A stretch of DNA of 64,000 nucleotides from positions 113,376 to 177,375 of IMG/VR virus record IMGVR_UViG_3300033145_000192, one strand, 5' to 3'. Shown here in pieces: positions 1 through 60,249 of this stretch. Source of the DNA: a virus. The notes under the pieces are model-generated. The model worked only from the letters and a program-made list of their open reading frames with translations, did no database searches and was not told the DNA's origin. Position 1 is the stretch's first letter; the number at the start of each line of letters is the position of its first letter. Both the position numbers and the translations under genes were made by a program.

Positions 1-3000
1 TCGTAATTGAATCAATCTTCTCGATGATTTGCTTGTTCGTGTCTTGGCCACGGCTGATTCCTTCATTCAGTCTGCCAATTGACTCAGCGAATCCTTCAGT
101 CAATATCCTCTGCATATTACGCGCAGCATCTTCCGATACCTTCGTGGTGTTATTACTCAACTGCTCAGAAAGCTTCAAGAACTTGTCAACTGCATCGGCA
201 GCCTGACCCTTTGTCTTGATGCCTCTAGCTACATCACCAAATCCCTGTGAACCTAGAAGCTGTCTTGTTCTTTCAACATTGATATGTCTACGTCCACGCT
301 TGCCTTCGCCACGAACACCCTTTAGGTCCTTGACAAACGAGGTATCTCTTCCGCCTCTTTGTTGTAGTAGTCCTCTAAAGCTACTCTCAACGGCTTCCTT
401 GCCACCTTCCTGTGCCATTAGGTGCTTGTAAATTGCGCGTCCTTGTCCACGCTTGCCGCCCCCATGAACCTTGAGACTTTGACGCTTCAGCCTTCTTAGC
501 AGATTACGCTGCTCTCTAGTTCCTCCGCTATCCGAAATCTTACGCTCAAGCTCCTTTATGCGTGGGTCAATTAGTCTAACTCCTCCACCTCCGATGGTAG
601 GACGAACTGTTTTCTGTAGCCTTGACAAGACTCCACCCATACCCTGCTTGAATTGTCCACCACCCATTCCGCCAGGAGCAGTTAGGGCACCAATTCCACT
701 TGGCCTCTTACCCATTCCAGTGATTTCTCCAAGGACCCTTGCGAATTCCTTGAGCTTCGGAGTGGCTTCATCCATACTGCCAGCCAATTTATCAGTAGAG
801 CCCTTCAGCTTCTCCTTCTTAGGGTCAACTGCGGGTAGGTCTCCAATTGTGCCACTAGAGATGATTCCCTGAACATAGTCGATGGTTTCCTTGGTTGCAG
901 TCTTATTCCTGATGTCCTTCATCATCTTCTGGATTCCAGCAACGGTTTCCATTTCCTTCTTGTAGCTGGCCTTTCTCTTCTCATCTCTCTCTGGGTCTCT
1001 CTTATAGCCGGAGTCTCTGAAGTCTTGCTGCAATTGGCCTCTTACATCCCACTGCTTGTGCCTGAAGCCCTTAAGTGCCTCCCATACCTTCTCACTTCCC
1101 TTTACTCTACCCTCTGGACCAAGTATTTTACCATACGCTGCTGTGGTGAGTCTAGCACGGTTAAGTGCATCAATACCGGTCTTTAGCTTGTCCATGTCTG
1201 TAGTAAGCTGGGCTCTAGAACCCTGTAGCGCCTTGATAATATCGGTCCTTTGCTGCATTGCAATCTGAGCATCTAGGGACGCAACCTTCAATAGCTGCTG
1301 CTGAATGTTGGCATCGAACTCGTCTATTGCGATAATCCTGTCTTGCTTTTCCTTAATCTGCTTCTGGATTTCTGCGATGCGAGCGGCTTCCTTCTCTCTC
1401 TGCTTTCCAATCTTTTCTGGTGAGAATATCTGTAGTTGACTGAATAGCTGTAGTAGCTCCTTATTGCCAACTCCACTTACTAGCTCTGGTCCACCAAATC
1501 TATCTTGTGACTGCATACCCTGAAGGACACGAAGTAGGACTTGGCTGCCGCCCTGCTCCCTTACTCTCTTGATTCTGCCACCAAGCTGTCCCAGCCCCTC
1601 CTTACCAACACCCTTGATACCGCTAACAAAGGCTTTGGCCAGGTTCATGTTCTTGATAGCTTCTTTGAACTTATCTGGACTTTCGAGAAGTAGACGGCCA
1701 AACTCAGCCTGCTGATTACGCCTTTGGGCATATAGCTGATTTTCCTGCTGCATACGCGTTTGGAGAGCGCCTATTTGCTGCTGTAGGGCGACCTTTCTAA
1801 TCTCTATTTCGCGCTGAGTGCTCCTTACTCTAAGTTCTACATCGGAACGTAGTTCGGCTGCGGCCTGCCTTTCATTAGCAAGCTTGAATCTGATAAGTCC
1901 TGTTTCTTCGTCAACAACCGTTTGGTTTGCCTTAACGCCTGCTACCTTGATTGCCTTAGATAGCGCACCTATCATTTGACCTAGGCCAGCAGTTCCGCCA
2001 ACGCCTGGACCAACAGTTCCAAGCTGCCTACCGGCTCCATGCTGGATAGCAGCCAATTGCTGCGCGGCTCCACGCCTGATTTCAGTTAGTCTACGCTCTA
2101 CGCTTGCACCACTGGTCTCAAGTAGCTGTAGTTGCTTACCTGACATGTCAGAGATTTTCTTAACAAGCGCACTGCCTATGGTGGCAAATACTGAAGCTAG
2201 TCTTTCCTGTGCTCCTATTACATTTTCGAACGCACCAGCAGCATTAGAAGCGGCCTCTTCCCATGCCTGAATCTGGTCGAGTGTCTTGTCCTTAGACCAC
2301 TCTACCATATCCATTTGGGCCTTCATCTCAGCCGCTAGCATATTGTGCTTGGCGTCCTCAATTTGCTTCGCAGTCTTCTTACTGCTAGCCTGAAGACGCT
2401 TGGCTTCTTCGCTACTCTCAGCCGTAGTTGAATCTAGTAGTCCCTTTTGTATCGTCAACGACTCAATTTGTCTCTTGAATTCACCCTTGTCAAACTTTAG
2501 AGTAGCGCCGATTGCACTTCTGCCACCAACACCAGCCATCATTCCCTGTTGAATTACACTTCGCTGCTTCGCAAGGTTATTGTCTTCCTCTTGGATACGT
2601 AGGATGCGCTCTAGAACAACGAGTCTTTCTTGTTCTACTTCCGCCATTTTTCCTACGGTTTCAAATCCAAGCTGCTTCAACTTGGCATACTTAGATTCCA
2701 TTGCTTTTCTGAGGGTTACCTGATAGGCTGCGTCAGCTTCGCCCTCGGCAATTTGCAAGCCTATACGCTCAATGTCCTTAAGGATTTTGGCTCTTCGTTT
2801 TGCAGCATCTACCGCAGCAGCCGCCCTTTCGGCGTCATTCTTTGCTTCCTTAGCAACCTGCTGTCTAGTAGTAAGTTCGGCCTTTAGCTCCTCTAGCCTT
2901 TGCTTCTGTTGCCCAGTTAGACGGTCACCGTCCTTTACCTGGGCATTCATCCACTTGAATAGCGCCTTTGCCTTAGCTACTCCTGGGTCCTTGTTTTCAA

Positions 3001-5392
3001 TTGCAGTTAGTTTATCTAGCTGCTCTTGTGTAGCTTCGCCACTGGCCTCAATTACCCTCAATCTTTCGATTTCGGCAGTTGGCTTAATCATTCTTCTGGC
3101 TTGCTTGACGAGTTGTAGTGACTCTCCTATCTTCTTAAGGTCATTTGCCTTCTTTGTAGCTTCATCGAATTGTTCCTCATACTTACCAATGGCGAACCCA
3201 AAGCCTGCTCCAACGGCAGCACCAACAATGGCTCCGATAGGTCCACCAAGCATAGCGCCCATACCAGCGCCTCTGGCGGCTTCTCCTAGGCCCTTACCTA
3301 GTCCCTTACCTGCGGACTTGGATACAGTTTCTTCTAGAGGACCAGAGATAGCAGTAAGCGCCATACCAGCGACCATACTGCCCATACCTGGCATCATCCT
3401 GCCCATACCAGAGCCCATGCCACCAAAGCGGCTAGCAATGCCACGACCAGCGCCAGCAACTCCACGGCCTGCCATTCTGGCACCAAAGCCGCCAACCTGT
3501 CCTGCTCCTCTTAGGAAACCACCAGCCCTGCTGCCCATAACAGCACCACCGGCTCTTCGTCCAACGTCAGCTACTCTTCCTCCGACTGCACCAAAGCCAC
3601 CAGCGATACGGCTACCAAATCCGCCAACGGCACTCATGCCACGACCGAGTGTGCTTCTCTGTCTCTGCATAGCTCCTAGGCCAGTAGCCATTGGGGCTTG
3701 TGCTCCAATTGCTGCGCCACCCATTGTTCTGGCAGATTGTGCTACCTTGTTGCTAAGGTTTTGAATACCTACGCCAAGCCTACTCTTGTTAATCTTGTCT
3801 GCTGTGGAACTAACACTGGCCCCAAAGGACTTAAGTGGCTGCTTGACATTCTTATTGAAATCACCCGCTCTACTCTTGTCAAAGTCCGCAGAACGAGCCA
3901 GTGCTCTCTTCGTGATATCAGCCTGTGCTCCAGTGCTGGCACGAGTTGTTAGCCTTTCTCCACTGCGCATAATGGCAGAGGTTGGGTCACCAGTTACGGT
4001 TTGGCCTCTGCGTCTCATGGCAGAAAGCTTGCTTGCAGCCCTCTGTGTTGGAGATACAGTGTGTCCAGCCTGTGACCTTAGTGCGACTCTCATAGGGTCG
4101 TTAGCTGGCATTGATGATAGTTGTCTCATACCAGGAGTTGTCATTGCTGGCATTGGCATTGGCATGCCTGGCATTGGTGCCATCATACCTGGTAGTGGTG
4201 TAAGTCCACCTCTTACCTTCTTCAATGCCTCTGTGGATTGCCACTGCCTCATTCCTGCTAGAGCTGGATATTGCATTGGCATTGTTCTGTCTGCACCAGC
4301 GCCGATACTGCGAAGACCTCCTCTTACTCCTTGAAGTGCGGAAACCTGTCCAGCAATTGGCGCACCCTGTCCGACTCTCGTTGGTCTTCCGGCAAACATG
4401 TTTCCACGAACATTCGGTCCACCGAACCACGCCTTTGTTGCTTTGGATGCAGTAGATGCTGGGGCATTAGGATGCATAGGCTGTGAGTATGGCAACATAC
4501 TCTGTCTTCTTTGTTGCCTCTGCATGCCCAGGACTTCTCTATCCTGACGCCTATAGTTTAGGTTTCCAGGTGCGCTTCCTAGTGGACGACCAGCCATTTG
4601 CCTTGTTGGCGTTCCTGCTGGCTGTAGTCTACTACTTGCCTTACCCGTGAAGAATACTCTTGTTCCTAGTGACGCAGAGCTAGCTGGAGCCTTTGGGTCT
4701 AGGTGTGAAGGTAGACGTGGGCCCTGCATTGCCCCAGTTGTTGGGAATGTTCTAGTAGCTCTTGTTGTTCCGGACCTTAGCATTGCGGAGCTTACCGCTG
4801 GGGAAAGACCTCTTCCTCCCATATTTCTGGCAACTGCCGCTTCTCTTGCAAAGTCTCTTCCAGTTCCTAGGCCAGAGAGTTGGAGCTTCCTTTGTCCACC
4901 CCACGATGCACCCTCGATTTGTCCACCACTTCTAGTAGGACCTATTCTGCGTCTACCACCTAGAGGAAGTGTTGGTAGAGGGAGTTGTCGTTGTCCAGCA
5001 GCGGCAAGGAAATCCTTTGAATAACCAGAACTGCCAGGACTAAGTAGACGACCACCCACTCCGGGATGTTGGCCACCACCACCAAGCCATCCTCTTGTAA
5101 AGCCGGGACTAGGTAGCTGACCACCTTGGGCACTTGGAATTGGACCCAACATGCCACCGGCAGGACCACGGGTTCCGCCTGCTCCTGGGAGTCGTGCAGT
5201 TCCAGCAGTAAATCTTCTGAAGTCACGACCGGCAATTAGTGACCCGCCGCCACCACCGATGAAAGGTCCAGCGCCAAATCCTGCTCTACCGGCTCCAGCA
5301 GCGCCACCGCCGCCTCCACCTCTTCCACCGCCTCCACCGCGATAATGCCGCCTCTTACCATACCGGCTGGTCCACCAGCGGCAGATATTCTT
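1..5392 (-). CDS. Tail tape measure protein, C-terminal part (continues past window edge)
   Basis: This is an uninterrupted reading frame that leaves the window at base 1. It lies in the -1 frame relative to the N-terminal part at 5236-6993. The frame opens after a TAG at 5393-5395 and stays open to the edge, about 1,800 residues. Its start is very rich in Gly, Ala, Arg and Pro. A Gly-rich, probably membrane-active segment follows near 3,180-3,480, and then long alpha-helical, Lys/Glu/Gln-rich coiled-coil sequence. That composition suits a siphovirus tape measure, which sets tail length and sits inside the tube. No start codon with a ribosome site is seen in this frame near 5,390, so I read it as the continuation of the upstream frame through a frameshift. 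Confidence 0.75.
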
Positions 5393-6993
5393 CTAGAGCC
5401 AGATTCGATTACTCTTTGCTGCCCAATGATGTCATTGAGGGCTGCGGAAACTTCCTTGACTGACCTTACTGAATCTCTCAAGCCTGCTACGAAATTCCAT
5501 ACGGCCCTTACAATCGTAACGCCGATTGTTATTCCAATCGCAGTAAGTATTGTCGAGTTACTAGCAATGAGACCTATCGTAGACTTGAATCCATCTACCA
5601 TGGCTGTAGCGCCAGAAATCACCATCTTCAAGAAGGTTCGCGTTTCTTCAGAGTTTACTAGAGAAACGAACGCTGCCTTAAGTCTGTTGATAGAACCCTG
5701 AAGACTGTTAGCCAAGTCCTCATTCTTACGCATTACGGCAATCGTGCTTTCGACTGCGAACTTGACTCTCTCCTCTTCATCACCAAACTTCTCAACGGAC
5801 TCTCTTAGTTTGTCGATGTTTAGGGCGTAGGCAAGTGTCTGTTCGATGTTTCTACCACCAAAAGCTCGCGCCAACTGCTCGGAGATAGCGGTTCCAGCAG
5901 TATCACGGATTCTCTCTAGGATATCTAGGATGACTGTTAGTCCCTTGATTTGGCCGCTAGATGGGTCAATGACCTCAATGCCACTGATTTCCTTAATCAT
6001 CTTCTGGTTCTTTGCGGCGAATGTAACCATTCTCCTAAGACCAGTTGATAGGCGGCTTACGCTAGCACCAGTTACGTTGAAGCCTGTGGCGATGAATGCC
6101 ATAGTCTGGTCTAGGTTAATGTTTTGAACATTCCTGAAAGCCGAACCGACTCTACGCGTTGCCTCCATCAATTCCTTGGCGTTAGCAATGGTCCTACTGG
6201 ACGTGGCAGCTAGCTGGCTAGAAATCTTGGTGAAGATGCCCATTTCCGTAGAGGCATCCTTGGCCACACCGATGTATTGGAGCTTAATGGCTGTAAGGCT
6301 ACGAACGGCATCGGTAGCACTCAATAGTCCATCCTCAAGACGAACTAGAGTCGTTACGGCATTTAGGAACTCGCTACTTGCGGTAGCCGTAGAGGAGCCC
6401 AGCTTTGTTGTCACTCCAATTAGTTGTTGACCAACACGAGCGGTCGTTAGAACGGCGTCAGTAACATCATCTAGGGAAAGACCAAGTTTCCTAGAAGTAT
6501 TGATGATTAGGTTGATACCTGCCGAAGTCTTCTTTGCTTCAGACCCTAGCTTTGCGAATGCCTTTGCCGTTGTTCCCAGTCCTGCCATTGCATCAGAAAG
6601 TCCCGCAACATCACGCGTAAGACCTTTGGTTGCTTTACTTGTTTCAATGAATACGCGGCCTCCACCAGCGAAGAAAGATAGCCTGCGAGCCTGAGTATCA
6701 AGCTTGATGATTTGCTGAACAGCAGACTTTAGCGCACCAATAGTAGCGAAGATGGCGGCGGCTGGAGCAGTCCAAGCCATTAGCCTCTTGGCAGCAAACT
6801 GGACCTGTCTACCAAACTGGAACGCATTAGACGTTCCTTGCTTGATAGCCTTGTTCAAGTTTACCTGGTTTTTGGTTACTCTATCAATCAGTCTAGAGCT
6901 TTGGCCCATGAATATCCTGTTGATATCCATTTGGGCTCTTTTAATTGATGATGGAGTGATGCCAACACTAAATTGAATGTCATCTCTGGGCAT
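5236..6993 (-). CDS. Tail tape measure protein, N-terminal part
   Basis: A 585-residue reading frame resembling the N-terminal region of TP901-type phage tail tape measure proteins. It has Ala/Gly-rich helices, an early hydrophobic stretch (AWTAPAAAIFATIGAL, about residues 74-89), a conserved-looking core from about 100 to 400, and a hydrophobic segment near 480-510. The start ATG is preceded by AGGAG with good spacing. The last 30 or so residues are an unlikely Val/Glu-rich tail read through GGTGGA-type repeats. The sensible Gly-rich continuation lies in the -1 frame. The full protein would therefore exceed 2,200 residues if the frames are joined. An intrinsic terminator lies just upstream, between this gene and 7076-7855. 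Confidence 0.85.
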   Translation of the reverse strand: MPRDDIQFSVGITPSSIKRAQMDINRIFMGQSSRLIDRVTKNQVNLNKAIKQGTSNAFQFGRQVQFAAKRLMAWTAPAAAIFATIGALKSAVQQIIKLDTQARRLSFFAGGGRVFIETSKATKGLTRDVAGLSDAMAGLGTTAKAFAKLGSEAKKTSAGINLIINTSRKLGLSLDDVTDAVLTTARVGQQLIGVTTKLGSSTATASSEFLNAVTTLVRLEDGLLSATDAVRSLTAIKLQYIGVAKDASTEMGIFTKISSQLAATSSRTIANAKELMEATRRVGSAFRNVQNINLDQTMAFIATGFNVTGASVSRLSTGLRRMVTFAAKNQKMIKEISGIEVIDPSSGQIKGLTVILDILERIRDTAGTAISEQLARAFGGRNIEQTLAYALNIDKLRESVEKFGDEEERVKFAVESTIAVMRKNEDLANSLQGSINRLKAAFVSLVNSEETRTFLKMVISGATAMVDGFKSTIGLIASNSTILTAIGITIGVTIVRAVWNFVAGLRDSVRSVKEVSAALNDIIGQQRVIESGSRRISAAGGPAGMVRGGIIAVEAVEEVEAAVALLEPVEQDLALDLSSVVAAGH

Positions 6994-35341: not shown

Positions 35342-35584
35342 ATGTGCCATGGAAGAGCTTCTAGGTATGATATTATTGCCGCAATGGGCTGTAACGCAGA
35401 CAAAGGCTGCGCCGGTAGTTGTGGAGGGAGTGAGGGAGGAAGCGAAAAATGCGGCGACAAGTGCAAGTGCAAAAAGCAATGTGTCTGTGAGCATTTGGTA
35501 ATGGTCAATAGAGGATGTCAGTGTGGTGCCGTGAAGGCGGCGAAGGAATGTAAAGAAAAGGGCGAGTGCAATGATTGCACCTAG
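35342..35584 (+). CDS. Cys-rich metallothionein-like protein
   Basis: An 80-residue protein with about 14 Cys, mostly in CxC, CxxC and CxxxC spacing (KCGDKCKCKKQCVC, GCQCG, ECNDC), few aromatic residues and many Gly/Lys. That is the composition of metallothionein-like metal-binding proteins. It overlaps the next gene by 14 bp. Binding of Zn or Cu is inferred; it could also be a small secreted Cys-rich protein. Confidence 0.5.
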   Translation: MCHGRASRYDIIAAMGCNADKGCAGSCGGSEGGSEKCGDKCKCKKQCVCEHLVMVNRGCQCGAVKAAKECKEKGECNDCT

Positions 35585-35918
35585 CGGAGTCGCAAAGTGG
35601 GACGGAAGAAAGACACGAGTTCCTCGTAGATGTATGGCATGTGGGCAAGAGCATAACATCATACCAGGGTCAGGAGGATTTTACATAGAGCCTAATGAGC
35701 GCGGAGAAATGAATCATGATTGTGTGATTGCCATGCGGCAGGCATGTTGGGATAGCTGGACTGAAGTTATTACGAACCTGTATGGCGTGCCAGGAAGGGA
35801 ATTTCCTAACTCACCCGTAATGGTAGCGTCGGAACGTAATTGGCGCGAAGATACCATCTTGCCTATAAGGGGATTTGATTACCGACCAGGAATGGGACCT
35901 AGCGGTGTGCTTGAATGA
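35571..35918 (+). CDS. Hypothetical protein with Cys pair
   Basis: A 115-residue protein starting inside the end of the Cys-rich gene. It has CMACGQEH near residue 21 and a His/Cys segment (NHDC) later, possibly one zinc site. No family recognised. Confidence 0.5.
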   Translation: MIAPSGVAKWDGRKTRVPRRCMACGQEHNIIPGSGGFYIEPNERGEMNHDCVIAMRQACWDSWTEVITNLYGVPGREFPNSPVMVASERNWREDTILPIRGFDYRPGMGPSGVLE

Positions 35919-36461
35919 TTAGGTGAAACACCTATTATTTGGGGCCTACACTATATCAGGGCCCCGCCGTAAGTCCTTTGTTTTCGACCACCGCTCTAAG
36001 TTCAATAATACCAGGGGGTTACGTAAAGCCTTTGTTTCCGACCCTTTCTTTTCATTTCACCGCCCCCATGAAATGAAATGCTTATCTCCTTTGTTTGCGA
36101 CCGCCCGATTTCTGGCACCCCCAACCCCTTGCCCTGTAAGGGTTTACGGCGGTGACCGTTTTCCGGCACCCCCAACCGCCCGATTTCCGTCGCCCCGCAC
36201 CGAAAACAAAGGAGTTATGACTGGCACGGGACGTGCTATAGGTAGGGTGGCGGCGCGGGGTCGGGTGCGACCCAAAAGCGTCCCGCTCTTTGACAATTCG
36301 GCTCATTTGCGTGTCACGGTGGGGGGCCTTGCGCCTCATTTGTGACGCACGGACCACGTCGAGAGACGTATCTGGAACCGAGACCCGCCGGAGGCTGAGA
36401 CGCTTCTGACACCTACGGGGGCGGCAGGAGGGACGCAAATGAGACGGCCTTGAAACGCAAC
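35919..36461. other. Non-coding region with repeats and a sigma-54-like promoter
   Basis: About 540 bp with no convincing gene. It contains three direct copies of CCTTTGTTTNCGACC (35975, 36029, 36088), duplicated GGCACCCCCAACC blocks, an inverted copy of the first repeat near 36201, and a sigma-54-like promoter at 36222. The TGANACG array starts at about 36310. Confidence 0.6.
36222..36237 (+). promoter_or_regulatory. Sigma-54-like promoter 1
   Basis: TGGCACGGGACGTGCT: GG at 36223-36224 and GC at 36235-36236 are exactly 10 bp apart. Preceded by AAAGGAGTTATGAC. No gene starts close downstream. It may drive the whole array region. Confidence 0.6.
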
Positions 36462-36524
36462 GGGTCGCCCTGAAGGCAGGGAGTCGCAAATGCGACGAAT
36501 CCGGTTCGAATCCGGAACGACCCA
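36462..36524 (+). ncRNA. tRNA-like element with short loops
   Basis: Acceptor GGGTCGC with ACGACCC (one C-A mismatch), T-arm TCCGG-TTCGAAT-CCGGA, and two mini-hairpins in the D and anticodon positions with only 4-nt loops. It cannot read codons but keeps the top half of a tRNA. The next reading frame's first possible ATG is its 3' discriminator. Confidence 0.5.
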
Positions 36525-36583
36525 TGACACGTTTCACCATGCGTCTCACAGAAAGGGACGCAAATGACACGAAGGAGGAGGAG

Positions 36584-36814
36584 ATGAAACGAATGCGGCC
36601 TGTCACTGAGACGATGGCACGCATCTGCGACGAATGTGACGGGTTGGGTTTCGTTCCGCGACACTCAACTGGAACGAAAGTGACACTGGTCGAGGCGCAT
36701 ACGGCACAGAAATGCGACGAATGCGACGGCTTCGGGCTGGTGGCACGCAAGCGAGACGAATCCACCCTGACTGAGACGATTCTGCGACTCAAAACCCTCT
36801 ACGAAACGAACTGA
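36584..36814 (+). CDS. Small zinc-finger protein (two CDECDG motifs)
   Basis: 76 residues from the ATG behind GGAGGAGG. CDECDGLGF and CDECDGFGL are DnaJ-like CxxCxGxG zinc motifs, spaced to form one zinc site. The upstream in-frame ATG at 36524 coincides with the tRNA-like 3' end and lacks a ribosome site. It sits inside the TGANACG array; its codons carry several copies. Confidence 0.6.
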   Translation: MKRMRPVTETMARICDECDGLGFVPRHSTGTKVTLVEAHTAQKCDECDGFGLVARKRDESTLTETILRLKTLYETN

Positions 36815-36823
36815 GAGACGGAA

Positions 36824-37333
36824 ATGACACGCTTCTGGACCATTGCCCACGACGATAAGGTTTCAAATGCGTCCCACGAACACCTAACCCTTGCGTTTCA
36901 CGACGATGGGACGATTGCGGTTCGAACCAAGACCGTCTCAGAAGGGGCTCATATGCGTGACACTTACGAGTCATGCGGCTCCTACGGTCGGTGGGATACG
37001 GGTCACCGTTGGGTCGAATTCGACTCAAGCTGCACCGCATTTGACATGGCTTCGGTTGCCATGCAACGCGAGTGGAACGTAACGGTTCTCAACTGCAACG
37101 CAAGTGACTCGGATTGGGGTCACATCAGTTTCATCGAGTGCGACGGAAACGTCACCGACCCGGATACGTTGCGCGGCATGGGACGCAACAAAGACGCGGA
37201 CGCCGATGAGACGAGTGCGACACGCAAGCGGAACGGAAACAGCCTCATGCGGTTCGGCGGGTGGAACGCAACGCGGGTCGTAAATGACAAGGCTCTGGCA
37301 CGAGCCAAGGCTGCCGACGCGGCACGCAACTGA
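36824..37333 (+). CDS. Hypothetical protein in repeat array
   Basis: A 169-residue acidic protein (many Asp and Asn, moderately aromatic). Its ATG lies in GGAAATGACACG, itself a copy of the array motif, and its TGA stop is the first base triplet of a tRNA-like hairpin. No family recognised. Weak ribosome site. Confidence 0.5.
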   Translation: MTRFWTIAHDDKVSNASHEHLTLAFHDDGTIAVRTKTVSEGAHMRDTYESCGSYGRWDTGHRWVEFDSSCTAFDMASVAMQREWNVTVLNCNASDSDWGHISFIECDGNVTDPDTLRGMGRNKDADADETSATRKRNGNSLMRFGGWNATRVVNDKALARAKAADAARN

Positions 37334-37375
37334 CACGAACGGTGCTCGGGGCGGGTTCGACTCCCGCCCGTGTCA
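37331..37375 (+). ncRNA. tRNA-like minihelix
   Basis: TGACACG and CGTGTCA form a perfect 7-bp acceptor. The T-arm GGCGGG-TTCGACT-CCCGCC follows after a 12-nt linker. The gene's stop codon is the TGA of the acceptor strand. T-loop agrees with the tRNA consensus. Confidence 0.6.
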
Positions 37376-37432
37376 TTTCGGTTTCACCATACGTGCCACC
37401 CAGAGGCACGCAAACAGAACGGAAGTTTCAAA

Positions 37433-37651
37433 ATGAAGAACATTCACGACCTGCGAGACGCATTCGACACGATTCAGGCTGCGGCACGAGACGGAAAACG
37501 AGCCTGCAACGGATTTGAGACGCTAGAGGCGTCCTGCGTGTTGGACCACGATATGCTGGCCAGCATACTCCTGAGCGTTGAGGAGCAGTTGCGTCTCATT
37601 GCGGACCACGCGAACCGGAGCCTGGGACAAACCGCTATCCGAATCGACTGA
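37433..37651 (+). CDS. Small helical protein in repeat array
   Basis: 72 residues, predicted almost entirely helical (DLRDAFDTIQAAARDGKRA, LASILLSVEEQLRLIADHAN). No family recognised. It ends just before another tRNA-like hairpin, in the same layout as its neighbours. Confidence 0.5.
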   Translation: MKNIHDLRDAFDTIQAAARDGKRACNGFETLEASCVLDHDMLASILLSVEEQLRLIADHANRSLGQTAIRID

Positions 37652-37659
37652 CACGCATC

Positions 37660-37707
37660 TGAGACGGACGGCTTCTAGGGTCGTAGGGTTCGATTCCTTA
37701 CGACTCA
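37660..37707 (+). ncRNA. tRNA-like minihelix
   Basis: TGAGACG and CGACTCA pair at 6 of 7 positions. The T-arm TAGGG-TTCGATT-CCTTA is present, with a 17-nt linker. Located after the stop of 37433-37651. Confidence 0.5.
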
Positions 37708-37761
37708 CTTGCGGTTCACAATCCGTGAAACGCACAACTGCCTGGTGGCAAAGGATTTAGC

Positions 37762-38355
37762 ATGAACGTCAGAAAGAACGCGCTTCGTCTCATGGTCGTC
37801 CGCAACGCAACTGAGACGGAGTTCGCTGCCCAGTTCGCCTACCGCACCGCACCGCTCGGCTCGACGGGACGCAAATGGGACGCAATGATGGACGACGGCT
37901 GGTGGAGGGGCGACGGTAACGAGTGGGTCAAGGTCTACAAGGGTATCAGTGAAACGCATTTGAGCCCGGACGACTACAACTACCTCTCGTGGGACGAAAT
38001 TGACTCGATTCTGCGACGAGAGACCATTCGGTGCGTAAGCGTGTCAACGACTCGTCTGCGGCGTGTTCGGTCTCACTTGCGTATCACCGAGGCGTCGTCC
38101 TTCGGTGGCAACGTGGCCCGCAGGGTTCGGTGGCTCAAGGACATGCGGGACGAAGCGGAGCGAAACGCATTTGAGGCGAACGTCCTGCTCTGCTCCGATA
38201 TGGACCAGTTGGCCGTAACTCCCGGCGACGAGTGGGATTACACCTACAACCCCGAGACCTACGGTTGGGACCACAGCGAGCCGTCCGGGTCATTTGCGTT
38301 CCAGAACCGTGCCAGCCACGAGTTGACCTTCGACGACATGGACGACTGCTTCTAG
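37762..38355 (+). CDS. Hypothetical protein in repeat array
   Basis: A 197-residue protein, Trp/Asp/Glu-rich in its C-terminal half. No family recognised. AAAGG precedes the ATG after CCTGGTG, a block also seen before the next two genes. Codons include many TGANACG copies. Confidence 0.55.
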   Translation: MNVRKNALRLMVVRNATETEFAAQFAYRTAPLGSTGRKWDAMMDDGWWRGDGNEWVKVYKGISETHLSPDDYNYLSWDEIDSILRRETIRCVSVSTTRLRRVRSHLRITEASSFGGNVARRVRWLKDMRDEAERNAFEANVLLCSDMDQLAVTPGDEWDYTYNPETYGWDHSEPSGSFAFQNRASHELTFDDMDDCF

Positions 38356-38374
38356 CAGACACGCATTGGTGACG

Positions 38375-38403
38375 GAGGCGGTAGGTTCGATTCCTGCCGT
38401 CTC
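38375..38403 (+). ncRNA. tRNA top-half-like minihelix
   Basis: GAGGCGGTAGG pairs over 11 bp with CCTGCCGTCTC around loop TTCGATT, like a stacked acceptor plus T-stem with no other arm. Confidence 0.55.
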
Positions 38404-38458
38404 ATTTGCGTCTCAATTATGGGACGCTTAACGGCCTGGTGGCCAAGGTGACACGCAT

Positions 38459-38698
38459 ATGAGTATCTTCCTGAACGGCGAGGCGTATGAGCAGGACATG
38501 GCCGAGACTGTCGTTGAAACGCAAGTGGAACGATACACCGGCAACTGGGAAATGAAGGACGGCAGCCAGCCCGTTGGCATGGTGACCGGAATGAGACGGA
38601 AGGACAGTTTGTCCCGTTTGCGTCTCACCGACTCCCAGGCCAAGTTCTTCCTCAGCGACACTCACTGGGATATCTACTGGGAGGTGTTCACCGACTGA
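38459..38698 (+). CDS. Hypothetical protein in repeat array
   Basis: A 79-residue protein with a mid-region of EVERYTGNW and a C-terminal aromatic patch. It follows GCCTGGTGGCCAAGG. No family recognised. Confidence 0.5.
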   Translation: MSIFLNGEAYEQDMAETVVETQVERYTGNWEMKDGSQPVGMVTGMRRKDSLSRLRLTDSQAKFFLSDTHWDIYWEVFTD

Positions 38699-38735
38699 TA
38701 CGCATTTGAAACGAACCAACGTCGGTTTGTTTCAG

Positions 38736-38766
38736 AGGGATAGACGGTTCGATTCCGTTTGTCTCT
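38736..38766 (+). ncRNA. tRNA top-half-like minihelix, also terminator-like
   Basis: AGGGATA plus GACGG pairs over 12 bp with CCGTT plus TGTCTCT (G-T pairs included), loop TTCGATT. This is exactly 7+5 bp, the acceptor plus T-stem length of tRNA. It is followed by TTTT and so could also act as a weak terminator. Confidence 0.6.
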
Positions 38767-38809
38767 TTTGCGTCTCACAATGAGGCGCAGCAATGCCTGG
38801 AGGCACGCA

Positions 38810-39040
38810 ATGAACACGTATCTGCTCACGGTTTGGGACGGAAGCAACGCAAATGGGCTCGGCCAGACCTACAATCTGGGGCGCAGCAACGGGCTCTACA
38901 CCCCGATTCAGCAGGCTGGAACGATTCTGGCACAGTGGCACGCAAATGGCACGAACGAGTGGACGTGCAACGATAACGGGGCGTGGGAGAACCTGGAGAC
39001 GGGCCACAAGGCGCAACTGAGCCGAGTGCTGGGCCGCTAA
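38810..39040 (+). CDS. Hypothetical protein in repeat array
   Basis: 76 residues from the ATG behind GGAGG (MNTYLLTVWDGSNANG). Gly, Asn and Trp-rich. No family recognised. The upstream in-frame ATG at 38759 falls in the preceding hairpin. Confidence 0.5.
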   Translation: MNTYLLTVWDGSNANGLGQTYNLGRSNGLYTPIQQAGTILAQWHANGTNEWTCNDNGAWENLETGHKAQLSRVLGR

Positions 39041-39089
39041 ACGCAAGTGAGACGAATCAACTTCTAGCCTGAAACGCAAAGGAAACGAA

Positions 39090-39314
39090 ATGCTGAAAAG
39101 TGAACTGATAGAGGAAAACAAGCGGCTGCACGATACCGTCGATTACCTTCGGTCGCAGTTGCGTCTCATACCGCACAGTCGTTTCGAGAAGTATCGGCAC
39201 GCAAAGGACACGAACGAGACTCTGGCCTACCGCAAGTGCGCCCAAGAGGTAGACTCGCGCTGCCTCGCCGCACTGAGCCACGCAACTGACATACAAGACG
39301 GTTGCACCGACTAG
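39090..39314 (+). CDS. Small coiled-coil protein
   Basis: 74 residues: LIEENKRLHDTVDYLRSQLRL is a leucine-zipper-like segment, followed by a basic/Ala-rich half. AAAGGA precedes the ATG. Last gene of the array cluster; a terminator hairpin follows. Confidence 0.5.
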   Translation: MLKSELIEENKRLHDTVDYLRSQLRLIPHSRFEKYRHAKDTNETLAYRKCAQEVDSRCLAALSHATDIQDGCTD

Positions 39315-39336
39315 GCGACACGCATTTGAGACGGAC

Positions 39337-39369
39337 CTGAGCATGTCGTTAAACTGCTCGGTTTCTTTT
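39337..39369 (+). terminator. Intrinsic terminator at end of array gene cluster
   Basis: CTGAGCA and TGCTCGG make a 7-bp stem with an 11-nt loop, followed by TTTCTTTT. This element takes the place where upstream genes have tRNA-like hairpins. Confidence 0.65.
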
Positions 39370-39562
39370 GCGTCTCACAACTGGCCAGGCCAGGGGGCAG
39401 TCTGTCTATAATGAATCAGCGAACGACACGCAAATGCAACGTATCTTCTCTAGCAGTTACGAATGACACGCAAATGCTACGAATGCTTTCGTTTCACCAT
39501 ACGTCTCACGAGAATCCGCCCGAGGTGTTCACGCATAAGGAGTAAATGACACGCAAATGAGA

Positions 39563-39724
39563 CCCACTACATATGGTATGCTATTTGTTATGACACGCAA
39601 ATGAAACGCTGTTGTTCCCTACGGGGAGATTGGCATGATTCCAACACAACTAAAGGAGTTACAAATGAGACGCAAATGCAACGAGCACCTGCGCCATTCT
39701 AATACACCCCCCATATGTAGTGGG
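39563..39724. repeat. 14-bp perfect inverted repeat, 134-bp spacer
   Basis: CCCACTACATATGG at 39563-39576 and CCATATGTAGTGGG at 39711-39724. The spacer contains further TGANACG copies and a possible small frame. Confidence 0.8.
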
Positions 39725-40004
39725 TTGGCACGCAAGAGAGACGCAACGAGCCTATGAAACGCATTTGTGACATAAAATCAATTCGTTTCACTATACGTCT
39801 CACGGAAAGCCGCCCGAGGTGTCTGGGGAGAGGGAGGAAACGCAAATGAGACGAGAGCCGCAAATGAGACAAAAGCCTCCGCTGCGCTGCGTCATGCTTC
39901 TTTTCATTTCACCTTGCAACGCATTTGTGGAGCAAGGCTACCTAAAGGCTTTACAGCGTTTCACTTACGTCTCAGATGTTGCACCGTATGTGACACGAAG
40001 ACTT

Positions 40005-40020
40005 TGGCACGGGATTTGCT
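40005..40020 (+). promoter_or_regulatory. Sigma-54-like promoter 2 (near-consensus)
   Basis: TGGCACGGGATTTGCT matches the RpoN consensus TGGCAC-N5-TTGC at every fixed position. GG and GC are 10 bp apart. A TGACACG copy ends 8 bp upstream of it. Confidence 0.65.
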
Positions 40021-40114
40021 TAGGGGGCGGCTGGCGGCTGGCCGACGTAACTCTATACGCCACGTCTAAGCCATTGTGCCCACTAGCTTTATGAACTCAG
40101 TGGACCTTGGGGTC

Positions 40115-40130
40115 TGGCATGGCATTCGCT
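40115..40130 (+). promoter_or_regulatory. Sigma-54-like promoter 3
   Basis: TGGCATGGCATTCGCT; GG 40116-40117, GC 40128-40129, 10 bp apart. Unlike most others it is not palindromic, which favours a promoter over an RNA hairpin. Confidence 0.45.
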
Positions 40131-40192
40131 TAGTGAGACGTATCTGACCCATGACACGCATAACTCCTTTGTTTTGGCAATGAGACGTATTG

Positions 40193-40228
40193 TGGTGTCC
40201 AGCCGGACACTGTAGCCAAATGGACACC
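40193..40228 (+). promoter_or_regulatory. Palindromic upstream sites of promoter 4
   Basis: Two sites: GTGTCC-AGCC-GGACAC, a perfect palindrome, followed directly by TGTAGCC-AAAT-GGACACC. They lie about 40-60 bp upstream of the -24 GG. Confidence 0.55.
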
Positions 40229-40261
40229 ACTGGAATCATTAGAGTTACGTCAAATACCCTC

Positions 40262-40277
40262 TGGCATGGGACGTGCT
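40262..40277 (+). promoter_or_regulatory. Sigma-54-like promoter 4
   Basis: TGGCATGGGACGTGCT followed by ATAG; GG and GC 10 bp apart. Preceded by AGAGTTACG as in the other members. Confidence 0.55.
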
Positions 40278-40465
40278 ATAGCTTCCCTGTCGGCCAACGG
40301 CAACACGGGAGGAAAGGTAAGGTATCACGGGGGTTACGGGTGTCATTGTGATACCCTCCCATGATACTAACCCTAGACTCGCCAGCATATTCGGGAGGTA
40401 AGCCTAACCCCTATTCGCAGGAATCGTGTCAAAACGGTCCCGAGCGAGCCATAAATGAGACGGAT

Positions 40466-40483
40466 TGTCGCCAAAAGGCTACA
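40466..40483 (+). promoter_or_regulatory. Palindromic upstream site of promoter 5
   Basis: TGTCGCC-AAAA-GGCTACA. TGAGACG ends 3 bp before it and 51 bp before the -24 GG. The same layout is found at promoters 7 and 8. Confidence 0.65.
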
Positions 40484-40511
40484 GCGTCCACGCAACGGGG
40501 GGAGTTAGGTT

Positions 40512-40527
40512 TGGCATTCGGCGTGCT
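40512..40527 (+). promoter_or_regulatory. Sigma-54-like promoter 5, upstream of ornate RNA
   Basis: TGGCATTCGGCGTGCT; GG 40513-40514, GC 40525-40526. A start about 12 bp on (near 40,538) would transcribe the structured region that ends at the 41397 terminator. Confidence 0.6.
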
Positions 40528-40539
40528 ACTGTGTTCCGT

Positions 40540-41425
40540 AACGCTAACTTGAGAGGGTAAAGCGAGCCACTATACCGCCCCATAAACGGGATTCCGACTG
40601 ATAGCGGGATAATGATTCTATCAGGGTTTTATACTAACCGGCGTTAAAAGCGTTGGACGTATTGTGGACCTTAGCACGATACGTAGGGTTCCCCTGGCGG
40701 GGAATACAAAGGTTGTATGGTCTACTGTGCAAGGTAGCTTAAGCCATACAACCGGGGGCGGTAAGCCGAGATACTGGCTTGCTCAATGTCGTAAGACTGC
40801 CCTGTAAAAGCGACGGCGCTTGCCCAAAGTATTTAGGCTTTAACCTATAAGGTTGCGGTAGGGGTTGGAATCAGGATACCCTGAGCGAGTAGACTAGGTT
40901 AGAGTTTCTGCCATGCGGGCGACAAGCCGATTGTTAAGCGGCTCGCGTGGATAGGTTGGCAAACCTATAACCCTGTTTTGGTGGGGTATATGGTGAGCTA
41001 TGGCCGACTGTTGGGAGCGTGGCGCAAGCTACGCCAGTCGGTTATCTCGCTAGTCTGTGCAAGCGGACCTTGTATATCCTTTTAATGAACGGGGCCTAGC
41101 CCGAAACGTCCGTTTCCGTTAGCTAGACACGGTTTCGCCTCTATTCGCCTATATCCGTGAGTCGTTTAGACTCGTGGGCTACCTAACTTGGTAGGTTACA
41201 GGATACCGCAAGGTCTCCCCAATACCGTAAACCCAGGGGCCTACAGGATAGCGGGCGATTGGCGATAACACGGTCCATAATGCGTTGATACCAAGGGACT
41301 CCAAACGGAGTTATTAAATCCCGTGAACGGTTTATGCCGGAAACAATGGCTTATTAGGGCAGGGTTCAAGGGGTCATATCCCCTGGCAGGGTTTTTGCCG
41401 CCACCATTCGGGAGGCGGCTTTTTT
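40540..41425 (+). ncRNA. Large ornate structured RNA candidate (about 0.9 kb)
   Basis: No reading frame fits. Many helices are visible: GGTTGTATGG/CCATACAACC (10 bp) near 40,710, ATAGGTT-GGCA-AACCTAT, CCGACTG...CAGTCGG enclosing GCGTGGC-GCAA-GCTACGC (GNRA-type loop), AGCCG/CGGCT, GAGTC/GACTC, CTACC/GGTAG and ACTCC/GGAGT. A sigma-54-like promoter precedes it and an intrinsic terminator ends it. Size, tailed-phage context and nearby tRNA elements recall GOLLD and ROOL RNAs, but I cannot show homology. Confidence 0.6.
41397..41425 (+). terminator. Intrinsic terminator of the ornate RNA
   Basis: GCCGCC and GGCGGC stem, 11-nt loop, then TTTTTT. Confidence 0.85.
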
Positions 41426-41659: not shown

Positions 41660-41730
41660 ATGCCACTGGCCTAAAAGTAAGGCGCTCGCCGCAAAGGCGG
41701 GAGGTATGGGTGCAAATCCCATGTGGCGTT
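41660..41730 (+). ncRNA. tRNA-like cloverleaf, non-canonical anticodon loop
   Basis: All four stems fold: acceptor ATGCCAC/GTGGCGT, 3-bp D-stem with a 9-nt loop, CTCGC/GCGGG anticodon stem, T-arm ATGGG-TGCAAAT-CCCAT. Length 71 nt. The anticodon loop CGCAAAG lacks U33 and may even close to 5 nt, so decoding is doubtful. No CCA is encoded. Confidence 0.55.
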
Positions 41731-43819: not shown

Positions 43820-43905
43820 TCGTTGCTGGTCTAGTAGAATGACGCCCGCTATCAAAGAGCATAGCTCTTATGCGGGAGATATGGGTTCATGTCCCATGCA
43901 ACGCG
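43820..43905 (+). ncRNA. tRNA-like element with hairpin in anticodon loop
   Basis: Acceptor CGTTGC/GCAACG, D-arm GTC-N9-GAC, anticodon stem CCCGC/GCGGG and T-arm ATGGG-TTCATGT-CCCAT are all in canonical order. The anticodon loop is 22 nt, not 7, and holds AAGAGC-ATA-GCTCTT. Removing 15 nt after the first loop base would leave TTCTTAT, with U33 and anticodon CTT (Lys). Confidence 0.5.
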
Positions 43906-43987
43906 CTACACAAGCCAGTAGGTAGAACCCCGCGTGGGGTATCACGCCGTATGGCTGTTTCTTTCACTCCAGCAAATAGGAGGGCAA

Positions 43988-44194: not shown

Positions 44195-44471
44195 ACAGCC
44201 TCAGTTTGTAGGCGGCGCGGGAATGGGGGTTTCAAGTATAGGCTGGCCCCCTCGCCCCGTATTCCCTGGGGAGGGTAAAGAATCCATGCGTATCAGGGCT
44301 GTTTGAACGGGGGGCTTCGGCCCCCTTCGTAATGTAGCTAGGCAGTTTGTGCGGCGCACCATGTCGGAATTGGATTGGGTGCGAGCGTATTGCGCGTGAA
44401 TGGGGCGCATACAATACAAACTCTCTAACGGTCCCAAGCCCGTGTAAATACAGAGGGAGGAAGGAATAACC
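44195..44471. other. Intergenic region with UUCG hairpin
   Basis: 277 bp without a convincing gene. It holds GGGGGC-TTCG-GCCCCC at 44310-44325, a very stable tetraloop hairpin lacking a T tract. Confidence 0.5.
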
Positions 44472-47011: not shown

Positions 47012-47141
47012 GGGGTGTTAGTCCAACGGGAGGACGCCGTCTGTAATGCTGCGCAGCGGGCATATTACTGCTAGGAGTAGCTATCCTGGCCGAGTATGTC
47101 GTCACTAGACGGAAACATAGGTTCGACTCCTATACACTCCA
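47012..47141 (+). tRNA. tRNA-like gene with 59-nt anticodon-loop insertion
   Basis: Acceptor GGGGTGT/ACACTCC, U8-A9, D-arm GTCC-AACGGGA-GGAC, anticodon stem CCGTC/GACGG, T-arm ATAGG-TTCGACT-CCTAT and discriminator A are all canonical. The anticodon loop is 66 nt. The insertion folds into GTAATGC/GCATATTAC and GCTAGGA/TCCTGGC hairpins. If the intron lies just 5' of position 33, the loop becomes TTCACTA, anticodon CAC (Val). No CCA encoded. Confidence 0.6.
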
Positions 47142-53437: not shown

Positions 53438-53618
53438 CGACCGTTGTGGTGAGCTTAAAGCATGGGCCCAATAAGCAACAAAATCCACGGGCGACGTATT
53501 GTGTCAAGCATTACTGTATGTGGCGTAAGCCGCAGCGCAGGGGCCTAATCGTCGGGGAATTTGCAAACCCTTTGTCGGTTAGGACACAAACGGCCAGGCT
53601 CGAATCCTGGGCGGTCGA
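53438..53618 (+). ncRNA. Possible tRNA-like element with long insertion
   Basis: Acceptor CGACCGT/GCGGTCG and T-arm CCAGG-CTCGAAT-CCTGG are in the right relation, but 181 nt separate the ends. TTTGT/ACAAA could be the anticodon stem. Inner arms are not resolved. Confidence 0.35.
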
Positions 53619-53826: not shown

Positions 53827-53961
53827 GGGAGTCTAGCTCAAAGGCGTGGCCACGTCTGCTGGGGAGTATCTGGACAGGCCGCAGATACAACCGTTAACAG
53901 TAAGTAGAGCAGCCGATTTGAAATCGGAAGGGTCCTGGTGCAAGTCCAGGGGCTCCCACCA
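53827..53961 (+). tRNA. tRNA-Ser-like (TGA) with 59-nt D-loop insertion, encoded CCA
   Basis: Acceptor GGGAGTC/GGCTCCC, U8-A9, D-stem GCTC/GAGC, anticodon loop TTTGAAA (anticodon TGA, U33 present), 5-nt variable region, T-arm CCTGG-TGCAAGT-CCAGG and ACCA end all fit canonical spacing; 27-43 is a G-A mismatch. The D-loop is 67 nt instead of about 8. The insertion has CGTGGCCACG and the hairpin GTATCTG/CAGATAC. A class I shape is unusual for tRNA-Ser. Confidence 0.65.
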
Positions 53962-57481: not shown

Positions 57482-58498
57482 ATGAGTAAGGATTTTGCGA
57501 ACATTGACGGAGGTTCGGCGGCTGCTTCTAGTGGCCAACGACCGTGGAACTCAAAGGGAATCAAGGTTCCCGGCCTTATGACGGTGGAAGAGGCGCTTAT
57601 TGCCGGTCGGGCAAACTGGGATGTGACTAGGGAGTCCATCATGCTTGCCGACCTCAATATGACGCCTGTGGCCGACCACTGGGCAACGTGCCGAAATGGC
57701 CCCGAAACCGACGACGACGGTGTTATCAAGAAGATTCCTCTCGGCATTGTCGGGAAGAAGTATACCATCGTTCAGAACCGTGAGGCGTTTAGCTTCTTCG
57801 ATTACGCAATCGAGGAGGGTGTCGCCTGTATCGAAACGGTGGGCGTGCTCGGTAACGGTCAGACCGTTTTCGCCGTGGCAAAGCTGCCCAAGACTTTCGA
57901 GCCCACGCCGGGTGACCCGATTGAGGCGTATATCCTTCTGATTACCACCCACGATGGTAGCGGAAGTATTCAGGCGCTTTTCATGCCTTACCGGCTTTCC
58001 TGCACCAATATGCTCATCGGAGTAATGAAGGGTGCGAAGAACATCGTGAAGATTCGCCATACCAAGAGCGCACAGTCGCGCCTGAAGATGGCTCACGAAC
58101 TCATGGGCGTTTCGGACGCATACTGGACAAACCTGGCTGCCTGCTATAGCAAGCTCGCCATGTCCAACATGGTCCGTCTGGACGTTATCGAATTCATCAA
58201 GAAGCTCTTTCCTGGGCAGATGAAGGAGATTGTCAAGAATGGTGTGGCAAAGAAGGAGGAGGTTGTTTCGACTCGGACGAAGAACAACCGTCTCAAGGTT
58301 TTCGGGCTTTACGAGGGTGAGGCCAAGGGTTCTCGGTTCGCTCCTGGGACAAAGTGGCAGGCGTTCAACGCTGTCACTGAGTATATCGACCACGAGCGGT
58401 CAATTCGTAAGACCTCGAACGCATGGGAGTCGAGTGTCTTTGGTAGCCAGGCGCAGAATATGCGTCAGAAGGCCCTTAACCTTCTGCTCGCGCCGTAA
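57482..58498 (+). CDS. DUF932 phage/plasmid protein
   Basis: A 338-residue protein of the DUF932 (TIGR03299-type) family: GLMTVEEALIAGRANWDV near the start, IPLGIVGKKYTIVQNREAF, SIQALFMPYRLSCTNML, and a helical end. The family is widespread in phages and plasmids, with unknown biochemical role. AGAGAAG site. Confidence 0.75.
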   Translation: MSKDFANIDGGSAAASSGQRPWNSKGIKVPGLMTVEEALIAGRANWDVTRESIMLADLNMTPVADHWATCRNGPETDDDGVIKKIPLGIVGKKYTIVQNREAFSFFDYAIEEGVACIETVGVLGNGQTVFAVAKLPKTFEPTPGDPIEAYILLITTHDGSGSIQALFMPYRLSCTNMLIGVMKGAKNIVKIRHTKSAQSRLKMAHELMGVSDAYWTNLAACYSKLAMSNMVRLDVIEFIKKLFPGQMKEIVKNGVAKKEEVVSTRTKNNRLKVFGLYEGEAKGSRFAPGTKWQAFNAVTEYIDHERSIRKTSNAWESSVFGSQAQNMRQKALNLLLAP

Positions 58499-59555: not shown

Positions 59556-59619
59556 TCAGGGGTGGTTTGGCGTTCCAACACGGTTGACAGTTATCCGTGA
59601 TTGTTTGAAACTGTCACTT

Positions 59620-59751
59620 AGTAGAGTAGCATAAGTGAATGCTATCGGCTGACCCCGTCATAGTTTGAACGGCAATAATGTATCTGTGGGTGAACGGTTA
59701 GTTGCCGCTGGTCAGAACCGAAGGATTTAGGTGCAAGTCCTAACTCTGCTG
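59620..59751 (+). tRNA. tRNA-like gene with 62-nt anticodon-loop insertion
   Basis: Acceptor AGTAGAG/CTCTGCT (one T-G), U8-A9, D-arm GCAT-AAGTGA-ATGC, anticodon stem TCGG/CCGA, 4-nt variable region, T-arm TTAGG-TGCAAGT-CCTAA, no CCA. The loop is 69 nt and begins and ends with the complementary CTGACC/GGTCAG. Removing 62 nt after the first loop base leaves CTCAGAA, anticodon CAG (Leu) with U33. Confidence 0.6.
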
Positions 59752-59769
59752 TAACAATGAGAGGTAAAC

Positions 59770-60249
59770 ATGCAAAATCTAGCAGGCCACGTCCGTTCCA
59801 CTGAAATCATCACGCACGAACTAACCCGCTGTGGTATTGAAATTGTAGAGAGCGACAAGCCTCTAGGTGAGCCAAAGTCAATGGTAAAGGGTAAGCTAGG
59901 TAACTTTGATTTCCAGCGTGCCTGGTATTACTGGATGGTTAAGGGCTTGGTGCCAATGAACGTGGCCAATGAGCTTTATGCGAACAGAATCGGACGCACC
60001 GATATCCGCTCTGGCGGGCATTGTGGCTGCCCGTCTCCAAGTGAGTATGGCGCAGAACGCTTCAATCCCAAGACTGGTATCAGAATGACCGGAACAAGGG
60101 AGGCTAAGGAGTATCCCGACGCCGTTAAGAGCCTTGGCTGGGAAGTAAACGACGAGGGTGGCGAAATGTTCGTTACCTCGTATCACATTGACTCCGAACT
60201 GGGGCTCTACTTGTTCGTTGAGGCGCTAAAGAAGCACAAACTGGTATGA
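59770..60249 (+). CDS. Hypothetical protein
   Basis: 159 residues, AGAGG site. It has CGCPSPSEYG and a mixed alpha/beta layout. Not recognised. Codon use from here on is less GC-biased than in 41-59 kb. Confidence 0.55.
   Translation: MQNLAGHVRSTEIITHELTRCGIEIVESDKPLGEPKSMVKGKLGNFDFQRAWYYWMVKGLVPMNVANELYANRIGRTDIRSGGHCGCPSPSEYGAERFNPKTGIRMTGTREAKEYPDAVKSLGWEVNDEGGEMFVTSYHIDSELGLYLFVEALKKHKLV

Follow-up and report, generated by a model that had tools for sequence, protein, structure and literature searches.

A tRNA-type gene interrupted in its anticodon loop in a phage that encodes RNA-repair enzymes: a possible short intron

Can a phage tRNA gene whose anticodon loop has grown from the normal 7 nt to 69 nt still give rise to a functional tRNA? 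The question is raised by positions 59620-59751 (+) of the window, the 64,000-nt stretch of DNA analysed here, which corresponds to bases 113376-177375 of a virus record of 177,375 bases in total and forms the end of that record. Terminase, portal, tape measure and ribonucleotide reductase are encoded in the record, and a tmRNA is found at L034:4199-4568. The presence of a tmRNA indicates a bacterial host, and the virus is therefore taken to be a phage of a bacterium. Rfam returned 44 tRNA matches over cut-off in the record, mostly at 24-49 kb, and ARAGORN run without introns called 45 tRNAs in its tRNA-bearing stretches. The protein encoded at 57482 matches 455 phage records, mostly from phages of actinobacteria, with named relatives being remote, while the terminase resembles those of phages of Bacillus and others.

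An interrupted cloverleaf and its registers

The 132 nt of the locus form the four stems of a tRNA (Table 1), and the expanded loop starts with CTGACC and terminates in GGTCAGAA. The locus scored 55.5 in a cloverleaf scan allowing one insert, and 53.5 (no U33 bonus) and 59.0 in two further scans; no rival acceptor partner reached an equal score, and the first of these scans found nothing on the reverse strand of the window. That this is not a tRNA but chance pairing around a hairpin is highly improbable. Neither Rfam, even at an E value of 10, nor ARAGORN, with or without introns, reported the unjoined gene, yet no match scoring at least 46 was found in 400 dinucleotide shuffles of window 36001-64000 (11.2 Mb), and the last scan gave none of at least 50 and a single match at 48 in 16.6 Mb of shuffles, counts which limit chance pairing rather than misassembly of true tRNA pieces, as shuffling breaks true tRNA parts too. 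The locus is thus firmly established as an interrupted tRNA-type gene.

Table 1. Parts of the gene at 59620-59751 and interrupted companions in the same genome (window positions unless preceded by an L number)
Feature	Position	Strand	Remarks and basis
Acceptor stem, 5' strand AGTAGAG	59620-59626	+	7 pairs with 59744-59750, one G-T
D arm, stem GCAT/ATGC, loop AAGTGA	59629-59642	+	6-nt loop, no GG; cloverleaf scan
Anticodon stem, 5' strand ATCGG	59644-59648	+	4 pairs with 59718-59721, A-A mismatch at 27-43
Expanded anticodon loop, 69 nt	59649-59717	+	Cloverleaf scans
CTGACC	59649-59654	+	Pairs with GGTCAG (59710-59715), extends anticodon stem, AA (59716-59717) unpaired; fold
62-nt insert, 32/33 register	59650-59711	+	Start can shift up to 4 bases later with a U33/A37 loop still left
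Anticodon stem, 3' strand CCGAA	59718-59722	+	Cloverleaf scan
T arm TTAGG-TGCAAGT-CCTAA	59727-59743	+	Position 55 is G, not T; cloverleaf scan
Acceptor stem, 3' strand CTCTGCT, and discriminator G	59744-59751	+	CCA not encoded; sequence
Companion tRNA-Val(cac), 59-nt anticodon-loop insert	47012-47141	+	Rfam 45.7 bits; ARAGORN with introns i(32,59)
Companion tRNA, ~60-nt D-loop insert	53827-53958	+	Ordinary loop TTTGAAA (anticodon TGA); scan scores 63, 66
Companion tRNA-like gene, 22-nt anticodon loop (15 extra)	43820-43906	+	Acceptor closes imperfectly
Companion, 11-nt anticodon-loop insert, AAG	L034:7412-7493		Scans
Companion, ~33-nt D-loop insert	L034:7630-7736		Scans

In its predicted fold the whole RNA is a cloverleaf whose anticodon loop bears an arm of its own, and it is more stable than shuffles (z = -3.1); the stability of the insert region alone is not unusual (z = -0.7). 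The initial annotation had described a 62-nt insertion with ends CTGACC and GGTCAG that continue the anticodon stem, similar in size to other inserts of the genome, and both its coordinates and its ends proved right, as did the comparison of size (62 nt against 59 nt at 47012 and ~60 nt in the D loop of 53827). The six end pairs have a p of 0.013 in shuffles of the loop. Such complementary ends had been thought common to this gene and 47012. They are found at 59620 only; four other expanded anticodon loops have 2, 2, 1 and 0 end pairs.

Because the ends of the insert form an inverted repeat, the 62 nt can be removed in several registers. Removal at 32/33 or 33/34 leaves CTCAGAA (anticodon CAG), removal at 34/35 or 35/36 leaves CTGAGAA (GAG), and removal at 36/37 leaves CTGACAA (GAC), with U33 and A37 in all three. 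The site first proposed, just 5' of position 33 with CTCAGAA as the product, is therefore a valid register but one choice of three, and its identity with the site at 47012 is possible rather than fixed. When the flanks were joined at this site ARAGORN called tRNA-Leu(cag); the program is permissive on joins, however, since it called 40 of 663, other sites and lengths included, several of them with other anticodons, and accepted CAG, GAG and GAC alike. CAG and CAC are missing from the ARAGORN anticodons of the rest of the genome; CAG is slightly favoured, as GAG and GAC are already among them. Neither the Leu codon CTG nor the Val codon GTG is the commonest of its amino acid. A short variable loop and a discriminator G, as found here, do not fit a bacterial tRNA-Leu. 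Two otherwise regular tRNAs with Leu anticodons, at L034:8176-8247 (CAA) and L035:2649-2722 (GAG), also have short variable loops, which we take to be unlike those of bacterial tRNA-Leu.

Companion genes and the fate of the insert

Further genes of the genome are interrupted as well, in the anticodon loop or the D loop (Table 1). Aligning the insert with that of 47012, a check suggested at the outset in the expectation of shared structure, revealed nothing in common (local alignment p = 0.998). None of the ten pairwise local alignments among five inserts of the phage was significant after correction (lowest p 0.034, for 47012 with 53827, then 0.064), and an element common to them was dropped as a proposal for this reason. 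Five of seven expanded anticodon loops have a T six bases ahead of the 3' stem (p = 0.013), and all seven have one either there or at loop position 2 (p = 0.003); the seven come from three phages: four from this phage besides L034:4625-4707, one from LR756511 and one from NiceHouse. These T positions lend weak support to a common site. Window 53438-53618 and L033:7508-7659 are ambiguous insert candidates. Inspection by eye removed L034:6843, L034:16012, L112:17354, L124:2481 and 2905, and L134:1659 from the insert-bearing tRNAs, these having either a long variable arm or the wrong acceptor partner.

We regard it as quite possible, short of probable, that the insert is a short tRNA intron which is excised and whose flanks are resealed by the RNA-repair enzymes that the phage encodes. 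In this scheme the precursor would form a cloverleaf plus one additional arm, an endonuclease would cut the 62-nt insert at both ends, and the 5' kinase/3' phosphatase and the RNA ligase of the phage would heal and seal the tRNA halves, to give a tRNA with a 7-nt loop and the anticodon CAG, GAG or GAC. What the sequence shows is the interrupted cloverleaf, the interrupted companions and the repair genes; cleavage and ligation, the place where they would occur and a decoding role for the product are inferred. Against such excision speak the ambiguous site, the permissiveness of ARAGORN, the lack of an Rfam match, the A-A mismatch, the discriminator G, the short variable loop, the ranks of CTG and GTG among their codons, the absence of RtcB and the want of any significant sequence or structure common to the inserts of this phage.

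A serious rival, possible at somewhat lower probability, is that the insert is kept and the RNA is a non-decoding, tRNA-like molecule in which a larger structured arm replaces the anticodon arm; its tRNA body might mark processing sites between genes, serve host tRNA nucleases as a decoy or have some other role. By its G55 and its D loop lacking GG the gene is grouped with a set of tRNA-like genes that includes 41660-41730 (loop CGCAAAG), L035:7017-7087 (CGTTGAG) and L034:13718-13784 (loop of ~5 nt), all three with non-decoding anticodon loops. With T-loop position 55 and the D-loop GG numbered by eye, T55 went together with GG in 28 of 29 scanned cloverleafs and G55 with its absence in 5 of 6; the single T55 case without GG, 42037, is by eye a false cloverleaf. 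A further tRNA-like gene with the same two traits lies at L112:9562-9634; most of these four are without U33 or with a 5-nt loop. All four are possible non-decoding tRNA-like RNAs, and since the set includes genes unable to decode, a retained insert has to be kept in consideration. The gene stops 18 nt ahead of the ATG of the ORF at 59770, and conserved T-arm hairpins are found between genes in the window; both speak for a retained insert, as does PMC11555353, where phages are reported to use tRNAs of their own to evade tRNA-targeting defences. On the other hand, G55 is no marker of a non-decoding RNA, because genes whose anticodon loop is regular have it too (L112:17354, 53827 and L123 reverse 4650), and 59620 is itself left with a regular loop in three registers.

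The insertion might instead have inactivated one of many redundant tRNAs of the phage, leaving a decaying gene that awaits loss. The redundancy of the tRNA set counted above, the mismatch in the anticodon stem, the unusual discriminator and the silence of Rfam would all agree with decay, but it is unlikely in view of the integrity of every other stem pair, the confinement of several similar-sized inserts to loops and the better-than-shuffled fold of the whole RNA. Removal of the insert remains the best single explanation, held with reserve; it builds on the regularity of the loop after removal, on the repair genes and on the analogy with the phages LR756511 and LR756500.

RNA-repair genes and interrupted tRNAs in other phages

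The sealing enzymes that cut-and-ligate splicing would use are present in the same record. A kinase-phosphatase, Pnkp (PF13671, PF08645), is encoded at L033:15629-16555 and adjoins a metallophosphatase gene; in protein scans two products matched RNA ligase (PF09414) with scores exceeding the Pfam cut-off, those of L033:17939-18907 and L035:1780-2424, and a genome-wide search for RNA ligases listed G000:18005-18517 over the cut-off, with a DNA-ligase gene below it. A search of this phage for RtcB found it absent. A PARP-type ADP-ribosyltransferase with a WGR domain is encoded at L033:5135-6403, and a DUF7873 protein, whose homologues sit among tRNA genes in phages of Arthrobacter, Rhodococcus and Gordonia, at L035:5505-6320.

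A tblastn search with Pnkp against 50,697 phages returned five records, with LR756511 (45%) and LR756500 (33%) the only two to match it over more than 80% of the protein; both phages were afterwards found to hold insert-bearing tRNAs. PNK3P occurs in three of eight records searched and is absent from the insert-bearing G006, Racecar and NiceHouse. RNA ligase genes are present in all six insert-bearing records; Francesca has them too, and Phendrix is without one. Since Francesca has no convincing insert, the association of inserts with ligases is weak, and it was dropped as an argument.

Relatives of the locus itself were sought widely. A DNA search with 59610-59760 against the 50,697 phages gave none, and none was found for 24 kb around the locus. 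When viral contigs were searched at the protein level, the genes at 48155, 59770 and 61534 returned nothing and that at 57482 a single distant contig; a pattern search with the D arm of 47012 also returned nothing. The terminase led to a near relative (G001), which ends at window 39997, and to a distant 167-kb relative (G006) with six tRNA matches; there was no match among bacterial genome contigs. A relative with an orthologous tRNA was not found in these searches. G006 does have a ~33-nt D-loop insert, at L107:11554-11659. Among four actinophages seven candidate inserts were listed, of which five turned out to be ordinary tRNAs and two remain, in Racecar (L128:9649) and NiceHouse (L131:1828).

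The tRNA inserts of LR756511 and LR756500 measure 50-67 nt and lie mostly in the D loop or at 9/10. One tRNA of LR756511 has a 21-nt insert in its anticodon loop, which read at 32/33 leaves CTCATAA. The D-loop inserts of LR756511 form part of a repeated element with seven copies and 13 proposed pairs, paired in 91% of cells. Eight of the 13 pairs are changed on both sides among the copies, where column shuffles average 3.9 and none of 500 reached as high, and a slid structure gives at most 3; the structure was drawn from the same seven copies, and the test favours it to that extent. The model of the element matches only 287-292 kb of LR756511. It has no match in the window, in G000 or in LR756500, chance-level matches in G006 (E 0.12 and 0.16), no copies elsewhere in viral contigs and no match in Rfam. 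Given its absence here and the lack of anything significant shared by the inserts of the present phage, there is no common recognition signal. With the 3' end of removal fixed at TAC/AAAC, ARAGORN called three of five joined LR756511 tRNAs (Tyr, Lys and Arg) and left two uncalled.

The 3' motif of the element, TACAAAC, occurs about 15 times in L123 reverse ~1960-5440 (record 287.2-291.4 kb), and the element sits in tRNA D loops, while its halves, in inverted order, border whole tRNAs as well. By eye, two copies may interrupt a small protein gene. At L123 reverse 2586-2690 the 3' half of a tRNA-Lys precedes its 5' half, with a 7-pair acceptor (TGTGGTG/CATCACA). Joined in permuted order it was called Lys(ttt) by ARAGORN over a range of joins, and in direct order it was left uncalled, which makes it a candidate for a circularly permuted tRNA-Lys gene flanked by inverted element halves. 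In LR756500 (L125-L127 reverse) four tRNAs have inserts of 62-67 nt, each ending in the common block ACTCAAAGTTATTACAG; all four copies of this 17-nt block in 69 kb lie inside such inserts, among which RNAalifold finds no common structure. The paper on huge phages (PMC7162821) does not describe tRNA inserts, and the word 'intron' appears 0 times in its text. Searches of the open-licence literature turned up neither short tRNA introns nor permuted tRNAs in phages.

Known splicing systems and implications

Protein-spliced tRNA introns of archaea and eukaryotes (bulge-helix-bulge or A-I pair) are likewise short and interrupt tRNA genes both in the anticodon loop and at other places, the non-canonical sites of archaea including 20/21, 25/26 and 29/30 (PMC4090602). 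In the 37/38 register, 59620 folds with a 2-nt bulge, a 6-bp helix and a 3-nt bulge, a loose resemblance to the bulge-helix-bulge. The strict form (4-bp helix, two 3-nt bulges) is absent from the locus, its U33/A37 registers differ from 37/38, 47012 lacks such a motif, and the gene sits in a phage of a bacterium, unlike the archaeal and eukaryotic introns. The pre-tRNA introns of bacteria are described in a section of PMC3400036 as self-splicing group I introns, and these too interrupt the anticodon loop. Unlike them, the 62-nt insert is far below the size of a catalytic core (~200 nt or more); it lacks the features of a group I intron and has no Rfam group I match. For phages, a passage of a 2014 review placed all introns reported until then in protein genes, despite the many tRNA genes of phages (PMC3984707).

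A functional parallel is T4, where, according to the same section of PMC3400036, Pnkp and Rnl1 reseal tRNA after PrrC has cleaved it in the anticodon loop. The phage studied here also has 5' kinase/3' phosphatase and RNA ligase genes, which unlike those of T4 would, as we propose, finish the removal of a genetically encoded insert. LR756511 and LR756500 resemble it in their homologous Pnkp and in tRNA-loop inserts of similar size; they differ in that their inserts are mostly in the D loop or at 9/10 and contain conserved sequence absent here.

If the insert is excised, it would be a small tRNA intron of a type that phages are not known to have. Splicing of this sort would be protein-dependent and would take place in a bacterium, where only self-splicing tRNA introns are held to exist in the account of PMC3400036 cited above; it would give phage RNA-repair enzymes a second job besides undoing host damage, and would explain tRNA genes overlooked by present tools. 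In a wider and more doubtful generalization, very short tRNA introns (~11-70 nt) would form a class of their own in large phages of bacteria, related neither to group I introns nor to the strict bulge-helix-bulge kind and spliced with phage-encoded RNA-repair enzymes. The gene at 59620 would be one member, and LR756511 would hold a more elaborate version, with a P1/P2 element that covaries and is placed also in inverted order around whole tRNAs and around the circularly permuted tRNA-Lys gene.

Other parts of the window contain features of their own. The repeats ACGCAAATG (11 copies) and ACGCATTTG (6 copies) are found at 35500-41000 and nowhere else in the window. About 2.1 kb at 39122-41240 are free of ORFs of at least 100 aa on both strands and contain terminator-like hairpins, and may possibly be structured RNA. 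A match to the twister-P1 ribozyme of Rfam at 44394-44461 is below threshold (33.2 bits, E 0.0011; gathering 67.2). Five intergenic T-arm-like hairpins with TTCGANT loops lie at 36490-38772; in the near relative (L045) their loops are kept and some of their stems are altered in pairs.
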